DNA from: Spirochaetales bacterium
GTDB taxonomy: Bacteria > Spirochaetota > Spirochaetia > Sphaerochaetales > Sphaerochaetaceae
NCBI GenBank assembly: GCA_012838895.1
Contig: DUOJ01000084.1
Location: 1-42,095, forward strand
DNA: 42,095 nucleotides
Reading direction: 5' to 3'
Program-made: the position numbers and the translations under genes
Part shown: piece after piece, positions 11,229 through 21,639 of the stretch
How positions within the stretch are numbered: the first letter of the stretch is position 1
How the letters are laid out: the number at the start of each line of letters is the position of its first letter
Notes under the pieces: model-generated
The model's database searches: none
What the model saw: the letters and a program-made list of their open reading frames with translations, nothing else
What the model was told of the DNA's origin: nothing

Positions 11229-14054
11229 TTAAATTGAGATAAACTTGAAAGCCTCAATTGAGATTGCCCCCTCATCACATACAACGCGCCCCTCTATTAA
11301 AAGGGGGAGATTGCGCGCTATAAGGTGGGCGTAGCGCGTATAGACGTTGGGGAAGAGGATTACTTCAAAGAGGGCTGTCTCATCTTCGAAGCTAGTGAAG
11401 CTCATCACCTCGCGGCGGATGGTGTAGACCCTCTTTTGAGTTATAGGCCACCCCACCACGGCTACCTTCTGCCCCACACAATGCTTCAAGTTAGCCCCCT
11501 TAAGGGGAGTCACCTTCCGGTAGAGGGCTAAAGGGTGCCCTTCGCGTAGGAACCCCAATGTCTCAAACTCTCTCTCCAACTCTTGACGCGTAGTAGGGTG
11601 GCACTTGCCAGTCGAGGGGAGGGGGGGAGGAGCGAAGAGCTCCCCCTGACCCCCCAAGGAGTGCCCCCCTCTGCTGTGTGTTAAGAGGGCCCTAATTTGT
11701 AGAGAGCGACCCATAGTGGGGGCTAAAGCGTCAAAAGCCCCCCCATTGACGAGGGCCACTAAATCATCTCTAGGTAGAGAGAGGCGCTGAGTAAAATCGG
11801 TTAGAGTTAAAAACTCTCCCCCCCTCGAGCGCTCTTCTATGAGAGCTTGAGCCCCTTTGAAGCTCAAGTTAGCAATAGCCATCAACCCTACAACCACCTC
11901 CTTACCCCTTCCCCAGTAACGGTAGCGGCTCAAGTTGATATCAGGACCCACCGTTTTAAGGCCCATTCTTCTACTCTCGCTGATATAGGCGAGGGTGTGG
12001 TAGTACCCCCCACCATTGGAGAGGACAGCTGCCATAAACTGGGCCGGGTAGTGTCGCCTTAAGTAGGCACATTGGAAGGAGAGGAGGGCGTAGGAGGCGC
12101 TGTGGGCTTTACAGAACGAGTACCCCTCAAAGGAGAGCATCATCTCCCAAACAGACTCTATAACCTCTTCACTAATCCCATTTTTAAGGCACCCTTGGTA
12201 GAAGAGCTCTTGAAACTGTCCTAAGCGCTTCCCTCGCTGTTTGGTGATAACTTTACGCAAAGCATCGCCTTCAGCCTCATTGAAGGCGGCGAGGGCGATG
12301 GCGACTTTAGAGAGGTCTTCTTGGTAACACATGATCCCATAGGTCTCCCCCAAGAGCTCCTCTAAGTGGGGGTGGAGAGGCTTCCAGTCGCCCCCTTTGA
12401 GGCGTCGCACGTACTCTTTTATAAACCGATTAGCGGCCGGTCTTATGATTGAGGAGTGGATTACGATGTGTTCAAAGTCCCCCTTCCCACTCTTTATCTG
12501 GAGTTGTCGCATAGCGGGGGATTCAAGGTAGAAGACCCCCATTGAGTCCCCTCGCGCCAACATCGCCTGTGTCGCCTCATCTTCACAGGGGAACCAGCGC
12601 CTCTCATCGATAATCTCCCCTTCAGCTTCGAGGTTGGCTAAAGCGTCGCGCACCACCGCTAAAGAGCGGTTTCCCAGCAGGTCAATCTTCACCAAGCCAG
12701 CCGCTTCACACCCCTCCTTCTCCCACCCCAGGAGGGGATACCCCTCAGCTGAGTACTCTACCGGGGCATAGTCGGCGATAGGTTTGGGGGTCACCACCAC
12801 TCCACCACAGTGGAGGGAGAGGTGGTGGGGAAACCCCTCTAGAAATGTGGCAATACTAATAATCTCCTCCCCTAAATTTCCCTCGGGAAGTGAGGTTAGG
12901 CCATAGACGCGTAGCGTTTCGCGGAGCGCTGAGCGACGCCTAAAGCGGTTGTGGTTAGCGACGCGTGCACAGTGGTCTCTCTCAAACAGCGCTATTGTTG
13001 CCTCCAATACCCCATCACGCTCATCCCAGGCAAAGTCGACATCCAAATCTGGGGGGTCTTGCCGCTCTCTATTTAAGAAGCGTTCAAAGTAGAGGTTGTG
13101 GAGGAGGGGGTCGACATTGGTGATCTCGAGGGAGTAGGCGACCAGTGAGGCGGCCCCCGAGCCACGACCGCAGGTGCGACTTGCTAAGGCGACGATATCA
13201 GAGAGGACGAGAAAGTAGGGGGCAAACCCTTTAGTGGTTATAACCTCCAACTCATACTCCAAGCGCCCTAGAATAGCATCGGAGAGTTCCCCATAGCGCC
13301 TCTCGGCTCCTGCATAGACTCGCTTGTAGAGTTCGGCTTGGCTATCAGGATAATCGGGGAAGGCGAGGGAATCAAAGAGGGTGAGACCCGAGCAGCGGTG
13401 GGCCACCTTCTCACTGTTAGCAAGGGCCTCTTCCCAGCCACTAAGGGCCTCCCTGTAGCGCTCTAGAGGGAGGAGTACTTCTCCCTTAATCTCCTCCAAT
13501 AGCCCTAAAGTGGTCCCCTCGCCAATAGCCCGCAAAACACGATGGGCTCCCACCTCCTCCTTAGAGAGGAGAGAGGCGTCATCGAGGGCTAAGAGGGGGA
13601 GAAAGAGACTACGAGCAGTGGGGACAGCCCCAAAGTTGGTGGGGCTCACCCCACCATAGATGTACTCAACCCTTCCAGCGACCCTCTTTAAAACTTCAGG
13701 AGAGAGGGAGGCGAAGATTAGCCCAGCACCATACCCTTCAATTGAGGCGAAGAGATCAAAAGCCTTCTCCATCTTCTTAGCTGAGAGGAGGCGGGTGAGG
13801 TTGGAAAACCCCTCTTTAGAGGTGACGAAAGCAAAGAGAGAACCAAACGAAGAGGTTAGTTCAGCTCCCACTAAGACCTCAACAGAGTACTCTTTACCCA
13901 CCTCCCTCAGGTGGTGGAGGCCATAGAGGTTGTCTCTGTCGGTGATAGCAACCCGCTTAACCCCCTCTTGGCTGAGGCGCTCCATTAACCTCTCGGGGGT
14001 TATAGTCCCCCACAGAAGGGAGTAGTAGGTGCGAATTGCTAGACGGCTAGCCAT
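11229..14054 (-). CDS. dnaE2: DnaE2/ImuC-type error-prone DNA polymerase III alpha
   Basis: 941-residue C-family polymerase. Catalytic aspartates are present: PDLDVDF at 335-341 (D336, D338) and KIDLLG with D458. CGRGSGAAS precedes them, and VANHNRFRRRSALRE around 366-380 is typical of the DnaE2/ImuC branch. The C-terminus is an OB fold ending at SFEDETALFEVILFP and IEAFKFISI, without the tau-binding tail of replicative DnaE (about 1150 residues). The N-terminal PHP domain has lost its metal ligands: the usual HxH at the start reads LAIRTYYSLL and AITDH reads AITDR, so proofreading by PHP is unlikely. Its start overlaps the ImuB-like gene by 8 nt (ATGGCTAG) with no clear ribosome-binding site, so translation is probably coupled. 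Predicted role: translesion or mutagenic synthesis. Confidence 0.85.
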   Translation of the reverse strand: MASRLAIRTYYSLLWGTITPERLMERLSQEGVKRVAITDRDNLYGLHHLREVGKEYSVEVLVGAELTSSFGSLFAFVTSKEGFSNLTRLLSAKKMEKAFDLFASIEGYGAGLIFASLSPEVLKRVAGRVEYIYGGVSPTNFGAVPTARSLFLPLLALDDASLLSKEEVGAHRVLRAIGEGTTLGLLEEIKGEVLLPLERYREALSGWEEALANSEKVAHRCSGLTLFDSLAFPDYPDSQAELYKRVYAGAERRYGELSDAILGRLEYELEVITTKGFAPYFLVLSDIVALASRTCGRGSGAASLVAYSLEITNVDPLLHNLYFERFLNRERQDPPDLDVDFAWDERDGVLEATIALFERDHCARVANHNRFRRRSALRETLRVYGLTSLPEGNLGEEIISIATFLEGFPHHLSLHCGGVVVTPKPIADYAPVEYSAEGYPLLGWEKEGCEAAGLVKIDLLGNRSLAVVRDALANLEAEGEIIDERRWFPCEDEATQAMLARGDSMGVFYLESPAMRQLQIKSGKGDFEHIVIHSSIIRPAANRFIKEYVRRLKGGDWKPLHPHLEELLGETYGIMCYQEDLSKVAIALAAFNEAEGDALRKVITKQRGKRLGQFQELFYQGCLKNGISEEVIESVWEMMLSFEGYSFCKAHSASYALLSFQCAYLRRHYPAQFMAAVLSNGGGYYHTLAYISESRRMGLKTVGPDINLSRYRYWGRGKEVVVGLMAIANLSFKGAQALIEERSRGGEFLTLTDFTQRLSLPRDDLVALVNGGAFDALAPTMGRSLQIRALLTHSRGGHSLGGQGELFAPPPLPSTGKCHPTTRQELEREFETLGFLREGHPLALYRKVTPLKGANLKHCVGQKVAVVGWPITQKRVYTIRREVMSFTSFEDETALFEVILFPNVYTRYAHLIARNLPLLIEGRVVCDEGAISIEAFKFISI

Positions 14055-15198
14055 AGAAGAGGGTCGTGGCCCGCCTTAAACCGGCTCCACCGTAGCGTAC
14101 CCTCGTTGAGTCGGCCACCGCCTCAACGCTCGCCTTAAGGGGAGGGGTAAAGAGGTCGCCTCCACTTGAGGGGGCCAAGTTGGTCAACTTAACAGCGATG
14201 GAGTTGATTCTTCCCCTCCTCAAAATCTTCTCGCACCCTCGCCAAGCAGCCTCCAATAGCTCCTCATCCCCCTTGAGGGGAGACTTCGAGTTGATCCGCT
14301 CACTACACCATTTCCCGTCATCGTAGAAGAGATGGGTTTCGACAGAGTAACACTCCAAATTCTCCCGACGGAGACTCAGCCCCACCCCCTCAATTGCCCT
14401 TAAAAGTCCCCCCCTAATCTCATCGAAAGAGAGGGCACTTTGGGCAAAATCGACCCTCTCCTCTAGGGTGCGCTCTCTCAAGGAGCGGGGGTCAACTAAA
14501 GAGGGGTCAATTCCAAGAGCGGCCTCCTTGAGGGCTAAGCCACGTCGTCCCAGTAGGGTTGTCGCCTCAACGTCACTCAAGGTGGCAATCTCCCCGATAG
14601 TAGTGAGGGAGGCAATCTGTAAGAGGGCCCCTATCTTAGGACCCACCCCTGGCAAAAGGGAACTGTCTTGGACCGCGAGAAAGGGGGACTCCTCCCCCTC
14701 ACGCACTTCAATAATCCCCTCTGGTTTAATGGTGCGGGTTGCAATTTTGGCCACCAGCTTGTTGGTAGCACTCGCCACTGCCACCTCAAGGTTCAACTCC
14801 TCTAAAAGGGCCCTCCTAACCTTGACTCCACAGTCAATGGGGGGACCAAAGAGGCGACTAGTACCACTCACATCGAGGTAGAGGTGCCCCTGTGAGTCGT
14901 TCTGGATAGTGGGGGTGAAGTGGGAGGCAATCTCTAGAAGGGAGTGCTCCACCTTGGCGGCTAAGTGGGGGTTGGGGGGGAGTACTTTGAGTTTAGGGAG
15001 CCTTGCAAAGGCCCGACTTAAGCTCATCCCAGCCACAATCCCCTCTTTAATGGCCCGTGAAGAGGAGGAGATTACTATGGGGCGATTGGCTGAGGGGTGG
15101 GCAATGACATAGGGATAGTCGTGTAAAGAGGGTTCTATGAGGGGGAGAATCGCTGCTTGGAAGTTGGGAAGGTTGATGTGGATTACAGCACTACCCAT
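14047..15198 (-). CDS. imuB: Catalytically inactive Y-family polymerase, ImuB-like
   Basis: 383 residues with Y-family fold: palm/finger region, helix-hairpin-helix (SLLPGVGPKIGALLQIASL, about 190-210) and little finger. The three catalytic carboxylates are gone: the DinB motif HVDMDAF reads HINLPNF (7-13) and the SIDEAYLD motif reads SQGHLYLD, so it cannot polymerise. That is the hallmark of ImuB, a hub that links DnaE2 to the beta clamp. A degenerate clamp-binding candidate, GGDLF, sits where DinB proteins have QLxLF. ATG 15198 was chosen over 15243 because AAGGA precedes it and it overlaps DUF72 by 8 nt (ATGGGTAG). I see no ImuA/RecA-like gene beside it. Confidence 0.8.
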   Translation of the reverse strand: MGSAVIHINLPNFQAAILPLIEPSLHDYPYVIAHPSANRPIVISSSSRAIKEGIVAGMSLSRAFARLPKLKVLPPNPHLAAKVEHSLLEIASHFTPTIQNDSQGHLYLDVSGTSRLFGPPIDCGVKVRRALLEELNLEVAVASATNKLVAKIATRTIKPEGIIEVREGEESPFLAVQDSSLLPGVGPKIGALLQIASLTTIGEIATLSDVEATTLLGRRGLALKEAALGIDPSLVDPRSLRERTLEERVDFAQSALSFDEIRGGLLRAIEGVGLSLRRENLECYSVETHLFYDDGKWCSERINSKSPLKGDEELLEAAWRGCEKILRRGRINSIAVKLTNLAPSSGGDLFTPPLKASVEAVADSTRVRYGGAGLRRATTLFYG

Positions 15199-15967
15199 CG
15201 AGGAGTTCCTTGAGGGAGAGGGCATTTTGGACCGCTTGCCCACCCCTGTGGTTGTTAAAGTAGACGAGGGTGAGGGGGGTGGTGGCCGCGAGGGTTCGCG
15301 CTCTCTCGGCTATAGATAAGAGCTCTTTTGGGGAGTAGAGGTAGTCGTAGCGACTGGCAACATCACTGCCCCACCAGTTCTCTTTGTTCCTCCCATGGAG
15401 ACGGAGGTATGCAAAAGGGGCTGTCACCACGTCAATGTGGGGGGGGAGGTTGGTGAGGTTGGGGAGGTCTAGCGCTACCAAGGCGACCTGGCGCTCCCTT
15501 AAGGCTTCGATAGTGCGGTTGTTGTACCATTGGGTGTGGCGAAACTCAACGGCGAGGGGTAACCCCTCCCAATAGTGCAAAAGGGCATCGAGGTAGCGGC
15601 GTTGCTCAACTTCGTAGTGGAAAGAGTAGGGGAACTGGAGGAGAAGGGCTTTGAGGGTGTTGGCCTTCAAAAGGGGTTCAAGGGCCCTCCTAAAAGTTTG
15701 GGCCTCACTGCGCCACTCGGCGGGGACAATCTTGTGGGTCAAGCTTTGGTGGGCCTTTAGAGTGAAGGAGAGGGAAGAGTTAACTTCCCCCATCGCCCTC
15801 AATTGGTCAGCTGTGGGCATCCGGTAGTAGCTGAAGTTGAGCTCGACGGTGGTGAAATACTCCCCATAGCGCTCCAAAAACTGCTCACTTGGTGTCCCTT
15901 TGGGGTAAAAAGGACCCACCCAATCGTTATAACTGTAGCCACTGGTGCCAACCATTATTGTTCCCAT
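15191..15967 (-). CDS. DUF72 (YecE-like) protein heading the mutasome cassette
   Basis: DUF72 TIM-barrel family protein, 258 residues from ATG 15967 or 254 from ATG 15955. Diagnostic patterns are VGTSGYSYNDWVGPFYP at the N-terminus, TVELNFSYYRMPT, LQFPYSF, AVEFRHTQW, and AYLRLHGRN followed by TLVYFNNHRGGQAVQNA at the C-terminus. The family's biochemical function is unknown; links to DNA or RNA processing have been suggested from gene neighbourhoods. Here it is the first gene of a tightly overlapping three-gene unit with an ImuB-like protein and DnaE2, the place where ImuA usually stands. Function in DNA damage tolerance is inferred from that context. Confidence 0.88.
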   Translation of the reverse strand: MGTIMVGTSGYSYNDWVGPFYPKGTPSEQFLERYGEYFTTVELNFSYYRMPTADQLRAMGEVNSSLSFTLKAHQSLTHKIVPAEWRSEAQTFRRALEPLLKANTLKALLLQFPYSFHYEVEQRRYLDALLHYWEGLPLAVEFRHTQWYNNRTIEALRERQVALVALDLPNLTNLPPHIDVVTAPFAYLRLHGRNKENWWGSDVASRYDYLYSPKELLSIAERARTLAATTPLTLVYFNNHRGGQAVQNALSLKELLDG

Positions 15968-15973
15968 ACTTGA

Positions 15974-16002
15974 GGTATACTATACATTTGTTTAGTTATC
16001 AA
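15974..16002 (-). promoter_or_regulatory. Promoter of the DUF72-imuB-dnaE2 cassette with two palindromes
   Basis: Minus strand: TTGATA (15997-16002), 17-bp spacer, TATACC (15974-15979). An inverted repeat GTATA-C-TATAC (15975-15985) covers the -10 box and a second, GATAAA-T-TTTATC (16012-16024), lies just upstream of -35. The layout resembles a damage-inducible operator, but neither matches the LexA boxes I know. Transcription would begin near 15967, giving an almost leaderless message or favouring the ATG at 15955. Confidence 0.4.
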
Positions 16003-16213
16003 GAGGGGGTAGATAAATTTTATCCCTTACCACTTTATTAGGGTATATCTTGTTAACTAGTGGTGAGGGTCGCTCCCCCTGTGGCCTCTTCCATCAGAGC
16101 CTACACTTCCCCTTTCTTTCTTTAGGTAAAGACCCTCTGGGGAGTTGACCAATACCCCTCTTACCCTAGTTAAGCCCAAGGGCCTCCTTGTCACTACCAG
16201 CTCAAAGGGGACC
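16003..16213. other. Intergenic region between hydA and the DUF72 cassette
   Basis: No gene seen. It holds the upstream palindrome of the DUF72 promoter (16012-16024) and the 3' untranslated region of the hydrogenase operon. The minus strand has a weak hairpin around 16081-16102 (GGCTCT/AGAGGCC) but no good U-tract, so I do not call a terminator. Confidence 0.5.
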
Positions 16214-17992
16214 TTAAGGAGTAACCTTCTCCTTCTTGGCATAGGTGGTGTGGAGTAATTCGTGGGACTTGTGGCTAAGGGGCTTCTCGAGGAACTCTGC
16301 GTAGATCTGTTGAATGGCCGGGTTGTCGTGGCTCTGGCGCAAAGGCTTCCCCTCATCCTCTTGGTAGATTGCCCCAATGCGGGCTAAGCGCACCGCGTCG
16401 GTGGTGAAGCGGGGTTGTCCCCCCCCACCAATACAACCACCGGGGCAGGTCATCACCTCGATGAACTGGAATTCAGCGGGGTGGTCTCGAATATACTCAA
16501 CAACACTAGCGGCGTTTCCCAAGCCGTGGGCCACTGCCACCTTCACCTCTTTCCCCTCTAAGAACGACCAAGCATCGACAGTTCCACTCAAGGTGACTGA
16601 GGCGGTCTTCACCCCCTCAAGTCCTGCTAAGGCTTCGATATGAAGGTCTTCACTCGCCAAAGAGCGCCCTGTTGTGACGGCGTGGACAGTCCTGAGGGCC
16701 GCCTCCATCACCCCTCCGGTGTTAGCAAAGATGTCAGCCGCTCCGGTCGAGAGGCCCAAGGGGGAGTCCATTTCGCCATCGGGGAGGGCTATAAAGTCGA
16801 CGCCACCCATCTTTATAAGGTCCCCCAATTCACGCGTTGTCAAAACATAGTCAACATCTTGGTAGCCACTGGAGCGCATCTCGGGGCGTACCGCTTCAAA
16901 CTTTTTGGCGGTACACGGCATCACCGAGACCACCACCATGTCAGCGGGATCAACATTGGCCTTTTGAGCATAGTAGGTCTTGGCCATCGCCCCAAACATC
17001 TGCTGGGGACTCTTACAGGTGGAGATCTTATCTAAAATCTCGGGAAAATAGTGCTCAGCATAGTTTATCCAACCGGGGGAGCAACTGGTAAATTGGGGTA
17101 GGCGTGTCTCTTGCCCCAAGATAAAGTGGTTACGTAGGCGTGTTAAGAGTTCGGTCCCCTCCTCCATAATAGTTAAGTCGGCGGCAAAGTTGGTATCAAA
17201 GACAGCATCAAAGCCCAGTTCGCGAAGCGCACTCACCATCTTCCCCGTCACGAGAGTCCCCGGGGGGAGCCCAAAACACTCCCCCAAGGCGGCTCGAATG
17301 GCGGGTGCTGTTTGGACAACAACATGCTTCTGGGGATTGTCGAGGGCCTTCAAGACAAATTCGATATGGCTCGTCTCAATAATCGCCCCCACCGGGCAGA
17401 CCGCGGCACACTGGCCACACTGGACACAGGTGATACTCTCTAAAGCATCGTTGAAGGCGGGGGCAATCGTTGTGTGGTACCCCCTAAATTGGGCCGAGAG
17501 GGCTCCCACCCGTTGCACTTCACTACACACCTGGACACAGCGACGACACTTGATACATTTGGCACTGTCGCGTATCAGGGCGACACTGCTGGTGTCGAGC
17601 ATCGCTGGAGGTTTCTCTCCCTGGTAACGTACTTCACGAATCCCCAACTCCAGGGCTAGTTGGCGCAGTTCACAGTCGTCACTACGCTCACAGAGTTGGC
17701 AATCTCCCTCGTGTTCACTCAACAGGAGTTCAACCACCACCTTGCGAGATTCACGTGCCTTGCGGGAGTTGGTGTGGATTACCATCTCCTCCTGTACCGG
17801 GGTGGTACAGGCCGCCACGAGGGTGGCGCGTCCTTCAACTTCAACCATACAGACGCGGCAAGCCCCCATCGGGGTGAGCCCCTCTAGGTAGCAGAGGGTA
17901 GGAATTTTTATCCCGACACTCTTGGCAGCCTCCAAGATTGTACTATTGTCACTAACATTTACCTGTTTACCGTTTATCGTTAATTTACACAT
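16214..17992 (-). CDS. hydA: [FeFe]-hydrogenase catalytic subunit HydA
   Basis: 592 residues from ATG 17992 (GGAGGGGG upstream; the start overlaps hydB by 8 nt, ATGTGTAA). Reversibly reduces protons to H2. N-terminal [2Fe-2S] domain with CYLEGLTPMGACRVC and ACTTP, a Cys/His [4Fe-4S] region (HEGDCQLCERSDDC), two [4Fe-4S] clusters (CIKCRRCVQVC; CVQCGQCAAVC), then the H-cluster domain with all three signatures: TSCSPGW, MPCTAKKFE and MTCPGGCIGGGGQP. This is the layout of NADH-linked multimeric hydrogenases. There is no C-terminal SLBB or [2Fe-2S] extension. Maturation genes hydE/F/G are not in the window. Confidence 0.96.
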   Translation of the reverse strand: MCKLTINGKQVNVSDNSTILEAAKSVGIKIPTLCYLEGLTPMGACRVCMVEVEGRATLVAACTTPVQEEMVIHTNSRKARESRKVVVELLLSEHEGDCQLCERSDDCELRQLALELGIREVRYQGEKPPAMLDTSSVALIRDSAKCIKCRRCVQVCSEVQRVGALSAQFRGYHTTIAPAFNDALESITCVQCGQCAAVCPVGAIIETSHIEFVLKALDNPQKHVVVQTAPAIRAALGECFGLPPGTLVTGKMVSALRELGFDAVFDTNFAADLTIMEEGTELLTRLRNHFILGQETRLPQFTSCSPGWINYAEHYFPEILDKISTCKSPQQMFGAMAKTYYAQKANVDPADMVVVSVMPCTAKKFEAVRPEMRSSGYQDVDYVLTTRELGDLIKMGGVDFIALPDGEMDSPLGLSTGAADIFANTGGVMEAALRTVHAVTTGRSLASEDLHIEALAGLEGVKTASVTLSGTVDAWSFLEGKEVKVAVAHGLGNAASVVEYIRDHPAEFQFIEVMTCPGGCIGGGGQPRFTTDAVRLARIGAIYQEDEGKPLRQSHDNPAIQQIYAEFLEKPLSHKSHELLHTTYAKKEKVTP

Positions 17993-20900
17993 TGGCCCCC
18001 TCCTCGTTGATATGTTTGCCGTAGTCACAACGGAGACAACGGCGCGCCTGTTCGTGGGCTACCACCTCACTCCAGGGGAGTTCCACCTCTTCAAAGTTGT
18101 GTTTACGTCTCTCGACAGGGATTTGCCTTATTGGGGCCCTCTCTATCATCGAGATCTCAGCATCGGGGTCGTAGCTACTCTCTATCACCTTCTCATAGCG
18201 CCAGAAGGCGTGACTTTCCCCCGTTAAGAAGAGGTCAATTCCTATGGCAGCCCTCTCTCCAGCTCCAATTGCTTCAACGACACTCGAGGGGCCATCTGAG
18301 CAATCACCCCCGGCGTAGATCCCTTTAATGTTGGTCGCTTGGGTGACAGGGTCGACTGCTATAAAGTTTTTATCGTTGAGGATTAAATTGAGGTCCCCCG
18401 TTAACCCCTTGAGGTCTAAGCGTTGACCAATTGCCATAATAACTTGGTCAGCTTTAATCACTATCCGCTCCTGGCTTTGGGCCATAGGGCGCCGTCGCCC
18501 CGAAGCGTCAAAAGAGCCGAGCCCCATCTGGAGACAACTCACCGCTTTCACCCTTCCTCGACTATCTTTAATAATCTCAACTGGTTGGGTTAGGGCAGTA
18601 ATTTTGACCCCCTCTTGGAGTGCTTCATGTACCTCCTCAGCGTAGGCGGGCATCTCATCTTGGCTACGGCGGTAGATGATTTCGACCGTTTCAGCGCCGA
18701 GGCGTAAAGCGGTACGAGCTGCATCGATAGCGGCATTACCCCCTCCAATCACGACAATGTTTTTGCCAACCTTAACTGATCCCCGGATATTGTAGCGCTG
18801 GAGGAAGGGGACCGATTGGACCACCCCCTCAGCCTCTTCACCAACCAACCCCATCGAGAGGGAGTTGGGGGCTCCAATAGCCAAGAAGAGGGCTTCATTC
18901 CCCTCTTCTTGGAGGCTCTCAAGGGTGAAGTCTTTACCAAGCTCCTTCTCGGTAATAATCTCTACCCCCATACGCTCCACCATCCGCACCTCACGGGCAA
19001 TCGTCTCACGGGGGAGGCGGTAGGCGGGGATTGTCTGGACCAACATCCCTCCGGGGCGGGGGGACGCTTCGTAGACCTTCGGTTTATAACCGAGGCGGGC
19101 TAAGAAGTAGGCGCAAGTTAATCCCGCTGGACCAGCTCCAATAATGGCAATCTTGCGCTGACTATTAACTTCACTGTGGCGCACCTCAGGAATTTGAATG
19201 GTCACCTCCTGGTCAACCATAAAGCGCTTAATGTTACGCACCGAGACGGCTGAATCGAGCGAGAGACGGCGACACTTATCTTCACAGGTGTGGAAGCAGA
19301 CCCTGGAGCAAATTGCTGCAAAGGGGTTGCGCTCGCGGTGGAGGAGGAGAGCCTCCTCGTAGCGCCCTTCACCCACGAGGGTGACGAACCCGGGGACATC
19401 GACATGGGCCGGACAGGCACTTTGACACGGAGCGCGCACCAGGCCGGGACACACTCCAGCTTCACAGTGGTGGTCTCTGATGTGCTCCTCATATTCGCTT
19501 CTAAAGTGGCGAATAGTTGAGAGGACCGGGTTGGGGGCTGTTTGCCCCAAACCACAAAGGGCCGTCTCTTGAATCCACTCCCCCAACTCCACGAGCTGCT
19601 CTATGTCCCCATCTTTCCCCTCTCCGTTACAGATGCGGTTGAGAATCTCAAGCATCCGTTTTGTGCCGACGCGGCATGGGACACACTTTCCACACGACTC
19701 CTCTTGGACAAATTCGAGGAAATAGCGGGCCACGTCGACCATACACGAGTGGTCATCGAGGACGATTAACCCCCCCGACCCCATGATAGCCCCCAGCTTT
19801 TTGAGAGGTTCATAGTCGAGAGGTACCACGAGGTGCTCTTTGGGGATACATCCCCCTGAGGGGCCCCCAATTTGGGCCGCTTTGAAAACACGCCCCTCTT
19901 TAAGTCCGCCTCCTACCGAGAAGATTAGATCTCCCAGCGGGGTACCGATAGGAATCTCAACTAAACCGGTTGTCTTAACCGAACCGGCGAGGGCGAAGAC
20001 CTTAGTCCCTTTGCTCGCATCGGTACCACTAGTAGCGTACCATTGGCTCCCATAATCGAGGATTGCCCCCACATTGGCGTAGGTTTCAACGTTATTAAGG
20101 AGGGTGGGCTTTCCCCAAAGTCCTTTTTGGGCAGGGAAGGGGGGACGGGGGTGGGGTTCACCCCTCTTCCCCTCAATCGAGTTGATTAGGGCCGTCTCTT
20201 CACCACAGACGAAAGCACCACTGCCCATCCTAATATCTAGATCAAATGAGAAGGGGGTTCCCAAGATTTTATCACCCAAAAGGTTGCACTCTCTAGCTTG
20301 CTGAATGGCCCTCTCGAGACGGGCTACAGCCAAGGGGTACTCAGCTCGCACATAGACATACCCTTGTGTGGCCCCCACGGTGTAGGCGGCAATCGCCATC
20401 CCCTCAATTAGGGAGTGGGGGTCCCCTTCAAGGATCGAACGGTCCATAAAAGCCCCCGGGTCCCCCTCATCGGCGTTACAGAGGAGATACTTCTCTTCCC
20501 CCTTCGCCTCACGGGTGAGGTGCCATTTGAGCCAGGTGGGGAAGCCAGCCCCACCGCGCCCCTTAAGACCACTCGCTTTCACCGCATCGATTACCTCGTT
20601 CGGCGAGTAGCTCTCTAGCACTTTAATCAGTCCCTGGTACCCCCGGCGACCAATCGAGGAGTCAATTTCGAGGGGATTGACGGTGCCACAGTTTCTCAGC
20701 ACTATTTTGCGTTGAGGCCCCAAGAAGGCCGAATCCTCCTCTTTTAAGACCTTCTTCTGGTCGTGATCGTCACTAAAGAGGAGCTCTTCAACTACCTTAC
20801 CCCCAATGAGGTGGTCTTGCACCACCTTAGCTACATCGTTGATGCTCAAGTTTTCGTAGATGATATTGTCGGGGACAATCTTGATAATAGGACCTTTGGA

Positions 20901-21104
20901 ACAGGGCCCCATACAACCGGTGGGGATTACATTCACCTGCAGGTTATGGGCTTTTATCGCCTCCTCGAAGGCCCCCTTAATCTCAAGAGAGCCACTGGCG
21001 ATACATCCACCACCGGTACAAATTAAGAGCGCTGTTTGTTCCCGCTCTTGCAAGGTTTTTTCAATTATCTTCGCAGCTTTTTGTTTAAAATTATTAAGAC
21101 TCAT
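17985..21104 (-). CDS. hydB: HydB diaphorase subunit fused to a GltD/NfnB-like NAD(P)H oxidoreductase
   Basis: 1039 residues from ATG 21104 (GAGGGGGG upstream). Three parts: a thioredoxin-like [2Fe-2S] domain with cysteines 29, 34, 64 and 68; a NuoF-type FMN/NADH domain (GRGGAGFPTW, ADEGDPGAFMDR, and the [4Fe-4S] motif ESCGKCVPCR); and, in place of the usual C-terminal two-[4Fe-4S] ferredoxin domain, a GltD/NfnB-like flavoprotein (about 560-1030). The last has its own cysteine-rich N-terminus (CQSACPAHVDVPGF, CSRVCFHTCEDKC), a dinucleotide fold IIGAGPAGLTCAYFLARLG and a second VIGGGNAAIDAARTAL. NuoF takes NAD(H); the GltD half probably handles NADP(H) or NAD(H), so the complex may couple H2, NAD(H) and a second donor. 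Bifurcation is inferred, not shown. Confidence 0.93.
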   Translation of the reverse strand: MSLNNFKQKAAKIIEKTLQEREQTALLICTGGGCIASGSLEIKGAFEEAIKAHNLQVNVIPTGCMGPCSKGPIIKIVPDNIIYENLSINDVAKVVQDHLIGGKVVEELLFSDDHDQKKVLKEEDSAFLGPQRKIVLRNCGTVNPLEIDSSIGRRGYQGLIKVLESYSPNEVIDAVKASGLKGRGGAGFPTWLKWHLTREAKGEEKYLLCNADEGDPGAFMDRSILEGDPHSLIEGMAIAAYTVGATQGYVYVRAEYPLAVARLERAIQQARECNLLGDKILGTPFSFDLDIRMGSGAFVCGEETALINSIEGKRGEPHPRPPFPAQKGLWGKPTLLNNVETYANVGAILDYGSQWYATSGTDASKGTKVFALAGSVKTTGLVEIPIGTPLGDLIFSVGGGLKEGRVFKAAQIGGPSGGCIPKEHLVVPLDYEPLKKLGAIMGSGGLIVLDDHSCMVDVARYFLEFVQEESCGKCVPCRVGTKRMLEILNRICNGEGKDGDIEQLVELGEWIQETALCGLGQTAPNPVLSTIRHFRSEYEEHIRDHHCEAGVCPGLVRAPCQSACPAHVDVPGFVTLVGEGRYEEALLLHRERNPFAAICSRVCFHTCEDKCRRLSLDSAVSVRNIKRFMVDQEVTIQIPEVRHSEVNSQRKIAIIGAGPAGLTCAYFLARLGYKPKVYEASPRPGGMLVQTIPAYRLPRETIAREVRMVERMGVEIITEKELGKDFTLESLQEEGNEALFLAIGAPNSLSMGLVGEEAEGVVQSVPFLQRYNIRGSVKVGKNIVVIGGGNAAIDAARTALRLGAETVEIIYRRSQDEMPAYAEEVHEALQEGVKITALTQPVEIIKDSRGRVKAVSCLQMGLGSFDASGRRRPMAQSQERIVIKADQVIMAIGQRLDLKGLTGDLNLILNDKNFIAVDPVTQATNIKGIYAGGDCSDGPSSVVEAIGAGERAAIGIDLFLTGESHAFWRYEKVIESSYDPDAEISMIERAPIRQIPVERRKHNFEEVELPWSEVVAHEQARRCLRCDYGKHINEEGANV

Positions 21105-21639
21105 CTTCTTCCCCCCTCTCTTCAAGGTAGGGTTCTAAGAGGTGTTTTATCTGACTCTCTTTGACCCTCTGGTGAACATCTTCATCAACCATCACCACCG
21201 GTGCTAAACCACAAGCACCAAAACAGCGCCCCACTTCGAGGGAGAAGTGGCCATCCTCGGTGGTCTCCCCAACCCCGATTTTAAGCTCCTTAGAGAGGGC
21301 TGCCAGCACCTCCTTCCCTCCGCGCACATAGCAGGCGGTCCCCATACAGACCCGAATGGTGTGTTTACCGCGGGGGGTGGTGCTAAAGAAGGAGTAGAAG
21401 GTTACTACCCCGGCAACTTCGCTGTAGGGGATCTCTAGTTTCTCACTTATATGGATTAAAATTGGTTTGGGCAGGTAGCCCAACAGGTTTTGGGTCGATT
21501 GCAAAACTGGTATGAGAGAACCTCTCTCGCCCCGTTTTTGGGCTATGATGTCATCTATTACCGGGATAACATCCTCAATCTTCAGTTCACGGTTAGAGCT
21601 CATTACGCTCTCACTTTGTTGTGTTGCCAAATGAGTCAT
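21094..21639 (-). CDS. hydC: NuoE-like [2Fe-2S] subunit of the hydrogenase, HydC
   Basis: 181-residue thioredoxin-like protein that shuttles electrons within the HydABC complex. The four cluster cysteines are visible as CMGTAC and CFGAC, with the preceding NuoE pattern VVTFYSFFSTTPRGKHTIRV. AAAGGAG lies upstream of ATG 21639. It overlaps hydB by 11 nt; gene order hydC-hydB-hydA is standard for trimeric NAD-dependent [FeFe]-hydrogenases. Confidence 0.93.
   Translation of the reverse strand: MTHLATQQSESVMSSNRELKIEDVIPVIDDIIAQKRGERGSLIPVLQSTQNLLGYLPKPILIHISEKLEIPYSEVAGVVTFYSFFSTTPRGKHTIRVCMGTACYVRGGKEVLAALSKELKIGVGETTEDGHFSLEVGRCFGACGLAPVVMVDEDVHQRVKESQIKHLLEPYLEERGEEDES

Follow-up and report, generated by a model that had tools for sequence, protein, structure and literature searches.

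The window analysed here (the whole 42,095-nucleotide stretch of a Sphaerochaetaceae contig) carries a three-gene operon that is real and widely conserved and that encodes a mutasome of a recently recognised kind, with a DUF72 protein as a fixed component and with probable SOS control. Taken as a whole, the operon is quite likely to be an SOS-controlled translesion-synthesis mutasome of the DnaE2B-iPolY-RecA kind in which DUF72 serves as a dedicated third component.

Layout of the operon

The genes lie in the order DUF72-iPolY-DnaE2, all on the minus strand, as one operon:

15191-15967, minus strand: DUF72 gene, 258 aa, TIM barrel (PF01904 E 7e-59, 200 bits versus a cut-off of 25.3)
14047-15198, minus strand: catalytically dead Y-family protein (iPolY, ImuB-like), 383 aa, IMS and IMS_C domains
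11229-14054, minus strand: DnaE2 error-prone polymerase, 941 aa, catalytic Asp kept, PHP metal site degraded

Both junctions are overlaps of 8 nt, with the iPolY start at an ATG inside ATGGGTAG and the DnaE2 start at an ATG inside ATGGCTAG; the best iPolY start is the ATG at 15198. The preliminary description had placed the start and end of the region correctly, and the three genes with 8-nt overlaps that it reported agree with the reading frames, families and overlaps found here. The flanks are unrelated energy genes (Rnf-type downstream of the operon, [FeFe]-hydrogenase upstream), and the source assembly amounts to 1.73 Mb at 85% completeness. Adjoining the [FeFe]-hydrogenase gene is a single 1046-aa ORF (window 17985-21125) that joins NADH dehydrogenase 51K (NuoF-like) and glutamate-synthase-small-subunit-like parts.

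The dead Y-family protein and its polymerase

In iPolY, the E. coli Pol IV residues D8/D103/E104 are replaced by N10/G105/H106 (numbering of window 14047-15201), so the Y-family member has indeed lost all three catalytic carboxylates, as first proposed. The replacements are invariant in a 15-row alignment and therefore represent a fixed dead signature of the iPolY family, not random decay. Two motifs lie near the C terminus:

14149-14157, minus strand: DLF, putative clamp-binding motif of iPolY (D349-L350-F351, nearly invariant in 15 rows)
14065-14139, minus strand: C-terminal RecA-N-terminus-like motif of iPolY (profile match to RecA; motif class from PMC6511836)

When the iPolY profile is compared with 12 spirochaete RecA proteins, it matches best at the N-terminal oligomerisation motif of RecA in every one (12/12), with scores that 0-12 out of 81,238 background windows attain. 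The protein ends ~5-10 aa past this motif, which means that the fused ImuB-C domain is missing. That absence is judged from iPolY length; the ImuB-C model PF20114 had no match in 14 genomes, and it is an insensitive detector that also overlooked two plasmid ImuBs. The predicted iPolY structure has a pTM of only 0.63.

DnaE2 keeps its catalytic aspartates (PDLDVD, 336-340, and D458) and has lost the PHP histidines (LAIRT, TDRDN), in line with what had been read from the window before; such PHP decay is common and typical in DnaE2 (PMC3919608). Phylogenetically, the operon DnaE2s are a single clade (support 100/99) that groups with Bacteroidota PolY-linked DnaE2 (99/99), apart from three ImuA/ImuB-linked DnaE2s and from DnaE1. 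Likeness to DnaE2B is judged from this grouping with the Bacteroidota proteins, as distinct from placement in the published DnaE2B tree. The original label "ImuB-like" thus holds to the extent that the protein is a dead Y-family member and fails in two respects, namely the missing fused ImuB-C and a DnaE2 outside the ImuA/ImuB-linked clade.

Comparison with known mutasomes

The cassette itself contains no ImuA/RecA-like gene, as originally noted, and none was detected with either the ImuA model NF033429 or an ImuA alignment. Against the source genome (85% complete), NF033429 matched only RecA itself; as a positive control, the same model detects three known plasmid ImuAs (1e-9 to 1e-18). The alignment search, which was run over 26 genomes and had no positive control, returned no match. 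A separate observation comes from another spirochaete genome of the same class, where a weak ImuA-model match lies directly beside a divergent Y-family match (G086:C155:2109-3513), possibly a true ImuA-ImuB pair.

With the ImuA-ImuB-DnaE2 mutasome of Caulobacter and Mycobacterium, the cassette has in common its operon logic, a dead Y-family protein, DnaE2 and (very probably) LexA control, and the layout found in Desulfosarcina (see below) corresponds to lexA-x-imuB-dnaE2. It differs in lacking ImuA and the fused ImuB-C, in having a DnaE2 of another clade than the DnaE2A group, and in the addition of DUF72. A DnaE2B-iPolY-RecA mutasome type is proposed in PMC12926913, and ImuA-less DnaE2 variants with RecA as the ImuA stand-in are described there and in PMC6511836. 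In that type (gbDinB2- and scDinB2-type), as in the cassette, DnaE2 falls outside the ImuA/ImuB-linked clade and is accompanied by a dead Y-family partner with a RecA-N-terminus-like motif, in genomes where neither ImuA nor ImuB is found. The difference is that the cassette has DUF72 as a conserved first gene; the main text of PMC12926913 makes no mention of DUF72, and no report of DUF72 as a fixed mutasome component was found in the open-licence literature searched. The cassette is therefore not strictly of the ImuA-ImuB-DnaE2 kind and fits the DnaE2B-iPolY-RecA kind, to which DUF72 is a new addition, so that the catalogue of ImuA-less mutasomes gains a DUF72-containing type.

The idea that DUF72 stands in the place of ImuA is right as to gene order and wrong as to kind, DUF72 being a TIM barrel and not RecA-like. 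Since iPolY keeps a RecA-N-terminus-like motif, RecA itself is the natural stand-in and, judging from these motifs, probably fills the ImuA slot.

Conservation of the DUF72 linkage

Among 120 relatives, DUF72 lies immediately upstream of every one of the 21 iPolY orthologues (20 from the same family and 1 from the same class), and DnaE2 follows downstream wherever the contig is long enough (a contig end cuts DnaE2 in two of the 21). The next-best Y-family matches in these relatives have neither DUF72 nor DnaE2 beside them. A scan of public genomes found DUF72 upstream at 35 of 38 loci (including Treponema, Gracilinema, Spirochaeta, a Myxococcota MAG and Desulfobulbaceae), and among 296 sampled Spirochaetota genomes every locus over threshold (15/15) has DUF72 upstream in the same three-gene order. 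The counts of 21/21, 35/38 and 15/15 rule out an accident of one genome. Three loci are exceptions: L067, the only DUF72-less spirochaete locus, is immediately preceded by transposase-like genes, and its iPolY is truncated, lacking the N terminus; L074 begins at a contig end; and L077 (Desulfobulbus) has an iPolY but, over the 3.8 kb that precede it, no DUF72.

In Desulfosarcina ovata, a mobilizable plasmid carries the order lexA-DUF72-iPolY-dnaE2, annotated as lexA-DUF72-hypothetical-DNA polymerase III alpha; the gene called "hypothetical" there encodes an iPolY that bears the same signature. A plasmid search with iPolY as the query returned distant Y-family proteins only. Within the Sphaerochaetaceae, DUF72 occurs in 20/20 genomes with iPolY versus 1/53 without it (Fisher 5e-17, a value that ignores relatedness and genome size). 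In Desulfobulbaceae, the gap from DUF72 to iPolY reaches ~500 bp. Free-standing DUF72s in other spirochaetes lie away from polymerase genes, which indicates that DUF72 can act alone; in the DUF72 tree, operon and free-standing proteins cluster apart, yet without a strict single clade. The proposed survey of DUF72 beside imuB/dnaE2 thus finds a linkage that recurs across Spirochaetota and Desulfobacterota. With no co-regulated ImuA found and the linkage not confined to one genome, the earlier idea of DUF72 as a conserved partner in an ImuA-less mutasome-like cassette is supported. As far as gene neighbourhoods can tell, a linkage this close to perfect, in which DnaE2 and its catalytically dead partner are seldom without DUF72, would tie DUF72 to mutagenic repair.

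Promoter, operator and probable SOS control

The operon promoter in the window reads TTGATA-17 bp-TATACC, and its spacer holds a palindromic operator:

15997-16002, minus strand: -35 hexamer TTGATA (assigned from sequence; position kept as CTTGATT/CTTGACT in >40 loci)
15979-15996, minus strand: spacer palindrome ACTAAACAAATGTATAGT (consensus ACTATACNNNNGTATAGT), operator and probable LexA box
15974-15979, minus strand: -10 hexamer TATACC (assigned from sequence; spacing kept in relatives)

Both the hexamers and the spacer palindrome of this promoter, first suggested to serve all three genes in common, are strongly conserved in relatives. At 42 loci (22 distinct sites), the 17-bp spacer of TTGATT...TATATC contains the palindrome ACTATACNNNNGTATAGT or a sequence near it. 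A generic sigma-70 promoter scan did not call the operon promoter, owing to the scan's -10 rule. The DUF72 ATG follows the -10 hexamer by 6 nt in the window and by ~6-8 nt in most relatives' loci, so close that the operon mRNA is probably leaderless.

Genome-wide, ACTATACNNNNGTATAGT with 2 mismatches is no richer than its reversed control. The stricter consensus YAACANWTRTATAGTA, used for the operator search in Sphaerochaetaceae, is matched 31 times across 24 family genomes, versus 0 times for the reversed control pattern. These fall before the DUF72 operon (7), hprK-ptsH-lexA (8), rpe-dtd-recA (9, plus 1 overlapping contig end), a radical-SAM gene of DNA modification/repair type (4) and others (2). 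In Sphaerochaeta-type genomes, the operator class of the DUF72 promoter is therefore found elsewhere almost exclusively ahead of the lexA and recA operons, and an operator common to all three is very probably a LexA box. By this comparison of sites, the cassette is very probably under LexA (SOS) control in such genomes, and the Sphaerochaetaceae gain a candidate LexA operator. In the source genome, lexA (a gene that was to be looked for outside the cassette, as was imuA) is present; its operon has weak partial operator sites only, none convincing, and recA has no operator in the stretch examined. SOS control of the cassette in the source genome is thus proposed by analogy with Sphaerochaeta.

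Two further sites were observed. In four genomes of three genera (L210, L211, L222, L223), the operator stands directly before the radical-SAM gene, which is TIGR03916-like (its score is below the curated cut-off) and likely a further SOS gene. The best other operator-like site in the source genome, ACTCAACATCCGTATAGT (G000:C102:8561-8578; L178:1362-1379), lies ~150 bp upstream of an mraZ-like gene at the start of a cell-division cluster, where damage control of division is possible.

Fold and predicted DNA site of DUF72

To our knowledge, the DUF72 family is widespread and has no assigned function; among 14 control genomes, 9 have PF01904 matches (including E. coli, B. subtilis and archaea). 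The AF2 model of the operon protein (pLDDT 86.7) has 1VPQ/TM1631 as its best fold match (TM 0.87). The match to endonuclease IV (5zhz) is weaker (TM 0.59), a likeness at fold level only, and the distant matches also include sugar epimerases and lyases. DUF72 residues N44, Y47, Y48, K71, H78, Q111, R143 and R189 correspond to the TM1631 site and do not vary among 17 operon DUF72s. Their counterparts in Tm1631 (N44, Y47, Y48, K72, H79, Q114, R145, R191) have been proposed to hold DNA phosphates or to act as a DNA wedge (PMC3828134). The operon proteins thus share with the Tm1631/DUF72 (YecE) family the fold, the predicted phosphate-binding residues and the two-tyrosine motif, and differ from it in their link to a mutasome and in Tm1631 Q50, W53 and R54, which are not kept (M, A and D in the window). 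Solved DUF72 structures have no metal site (PMC3828134), which makes nuclease activity uncertain.

DUF72 also occurs near a second kind of mutasome. The PolB2-iRadA-PPB2 system (PMC11791011) is likewise a three-gene damage-inducible polymerase operon, with DUF72 and lexA enriched nearby, and DUF72 is likened there to UV-damage endonuclease; it differs in having a B-family polymerase and in that DUF72 is only enriched "to some degree" near the polB2 mutasome genes. A DUF72 neighbour in two unrelated mutasome types indicates a role in DNA damage. A LexA-linked, fixed place in an error-prone polymerase operon, together with the PolB2 neighbourhood, leads to the hypothesis that DUF72 couples damage recognition or processing to mutagenic synthesis.

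Proposed working and alternative explanations

In the proposed scheme, DNA damage would lead to RecA filaments, LexA cleavage and de-repression of the probably leaderless promoter, and coupled translation would yield DUF72, iPolY and DnaE2. iPolY would act as the scaffold, its RecA-N-terminus-like tail docking on RecA (the slot of ImuA in the classical system) and its DLF motif docking on the clamp, so that the proteins could form a complex in which DnaE2, without PHP proofreading, would copy past the lesion. The part of DUF72 would probably be to bind or process damaged DNA for DnaE2, its TIM barrel being endonuclease-IV/UVDE-like and carrying a two-tyrosine wedge and a predicted phosphate-binding site that is intact.

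One reading of DUF72, somewhat less likely than not, is that of a true mutasome subunit, a lesion-recognising or lesion-incising TIM barrel that passes damaged DNA to the error-prone polymerase; in that case, the family might recognise damage in partnership with translesion polymerases throughout life. Of similar probability is an SOS-induced repair enzyme (e.g., a damage-specific endonuclease) that is only co-expressed and serves a separate, excision-like branch. The endonuclease-IV-like barrel with its conserved predicted DNA site would suit such an enzyme, as would the free-standing DUF72s that have no polymerase neighbours and the wide DUF72-iPolY gap in Desulfobulbaceae, whereas the gene overlaps, and a linkage and gene order kept almost perfectly in two phyla, argue for stoichiometric coupling, and the enrichment of DUF72 near polB2 mutasome genes (PMC11791011) also speaks against a separate branch. 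It is unlikely that DUF72 replaces ImuA functionally by bridging iPolY and DnaE2 or regulating both. Its place in the cassette is the same, the Desulfosarcina order mirrors lexA-imuA-imuB-dnaE2, and neither ImuA search detected an ImuA; yet the DUF72 fold differs, iPolY keeps its RecA-binding-like motif, and iPolY lacks the fused ImuB-C, which also contributes to ImuA binding (PMC12926913).

Quite unlikely, too, is a substrate other than DNA (nucleotide pool or sugar phosphate), with the linkage reflecting damage-stress metabolism: the epimerases and lyases among the distant fold matches and the lack of any known DUF72 activity leave room for it, while the repeated linkage to polymerases and lexA and the conserved predicted DNA-phosphate site point to DNA. 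Vertical inheritance or hitchhiking without function, which could draw on the mostly spirochaetal loci and the single DnaE2 clade, appears very improbable given that the order is kept from Spirochaetota to Desulfobacterota at protein identities down to ~35-45%, and on a plasmid as well, that spirochaetes have a common operator, and that the one spirochaete locus without DUF72 (L067) is that with transposase-like genes upstream and an iPolY without its N terminus.

A second, divergent DUF72 paralogue (L143-L150) was also observed, which family-wide occurs only in operon-carrying genomes (16/20 versus 0/53, a comparison that genome size may confound); it lies away from polymerases and is sometimes found within 20 kb of the operon.
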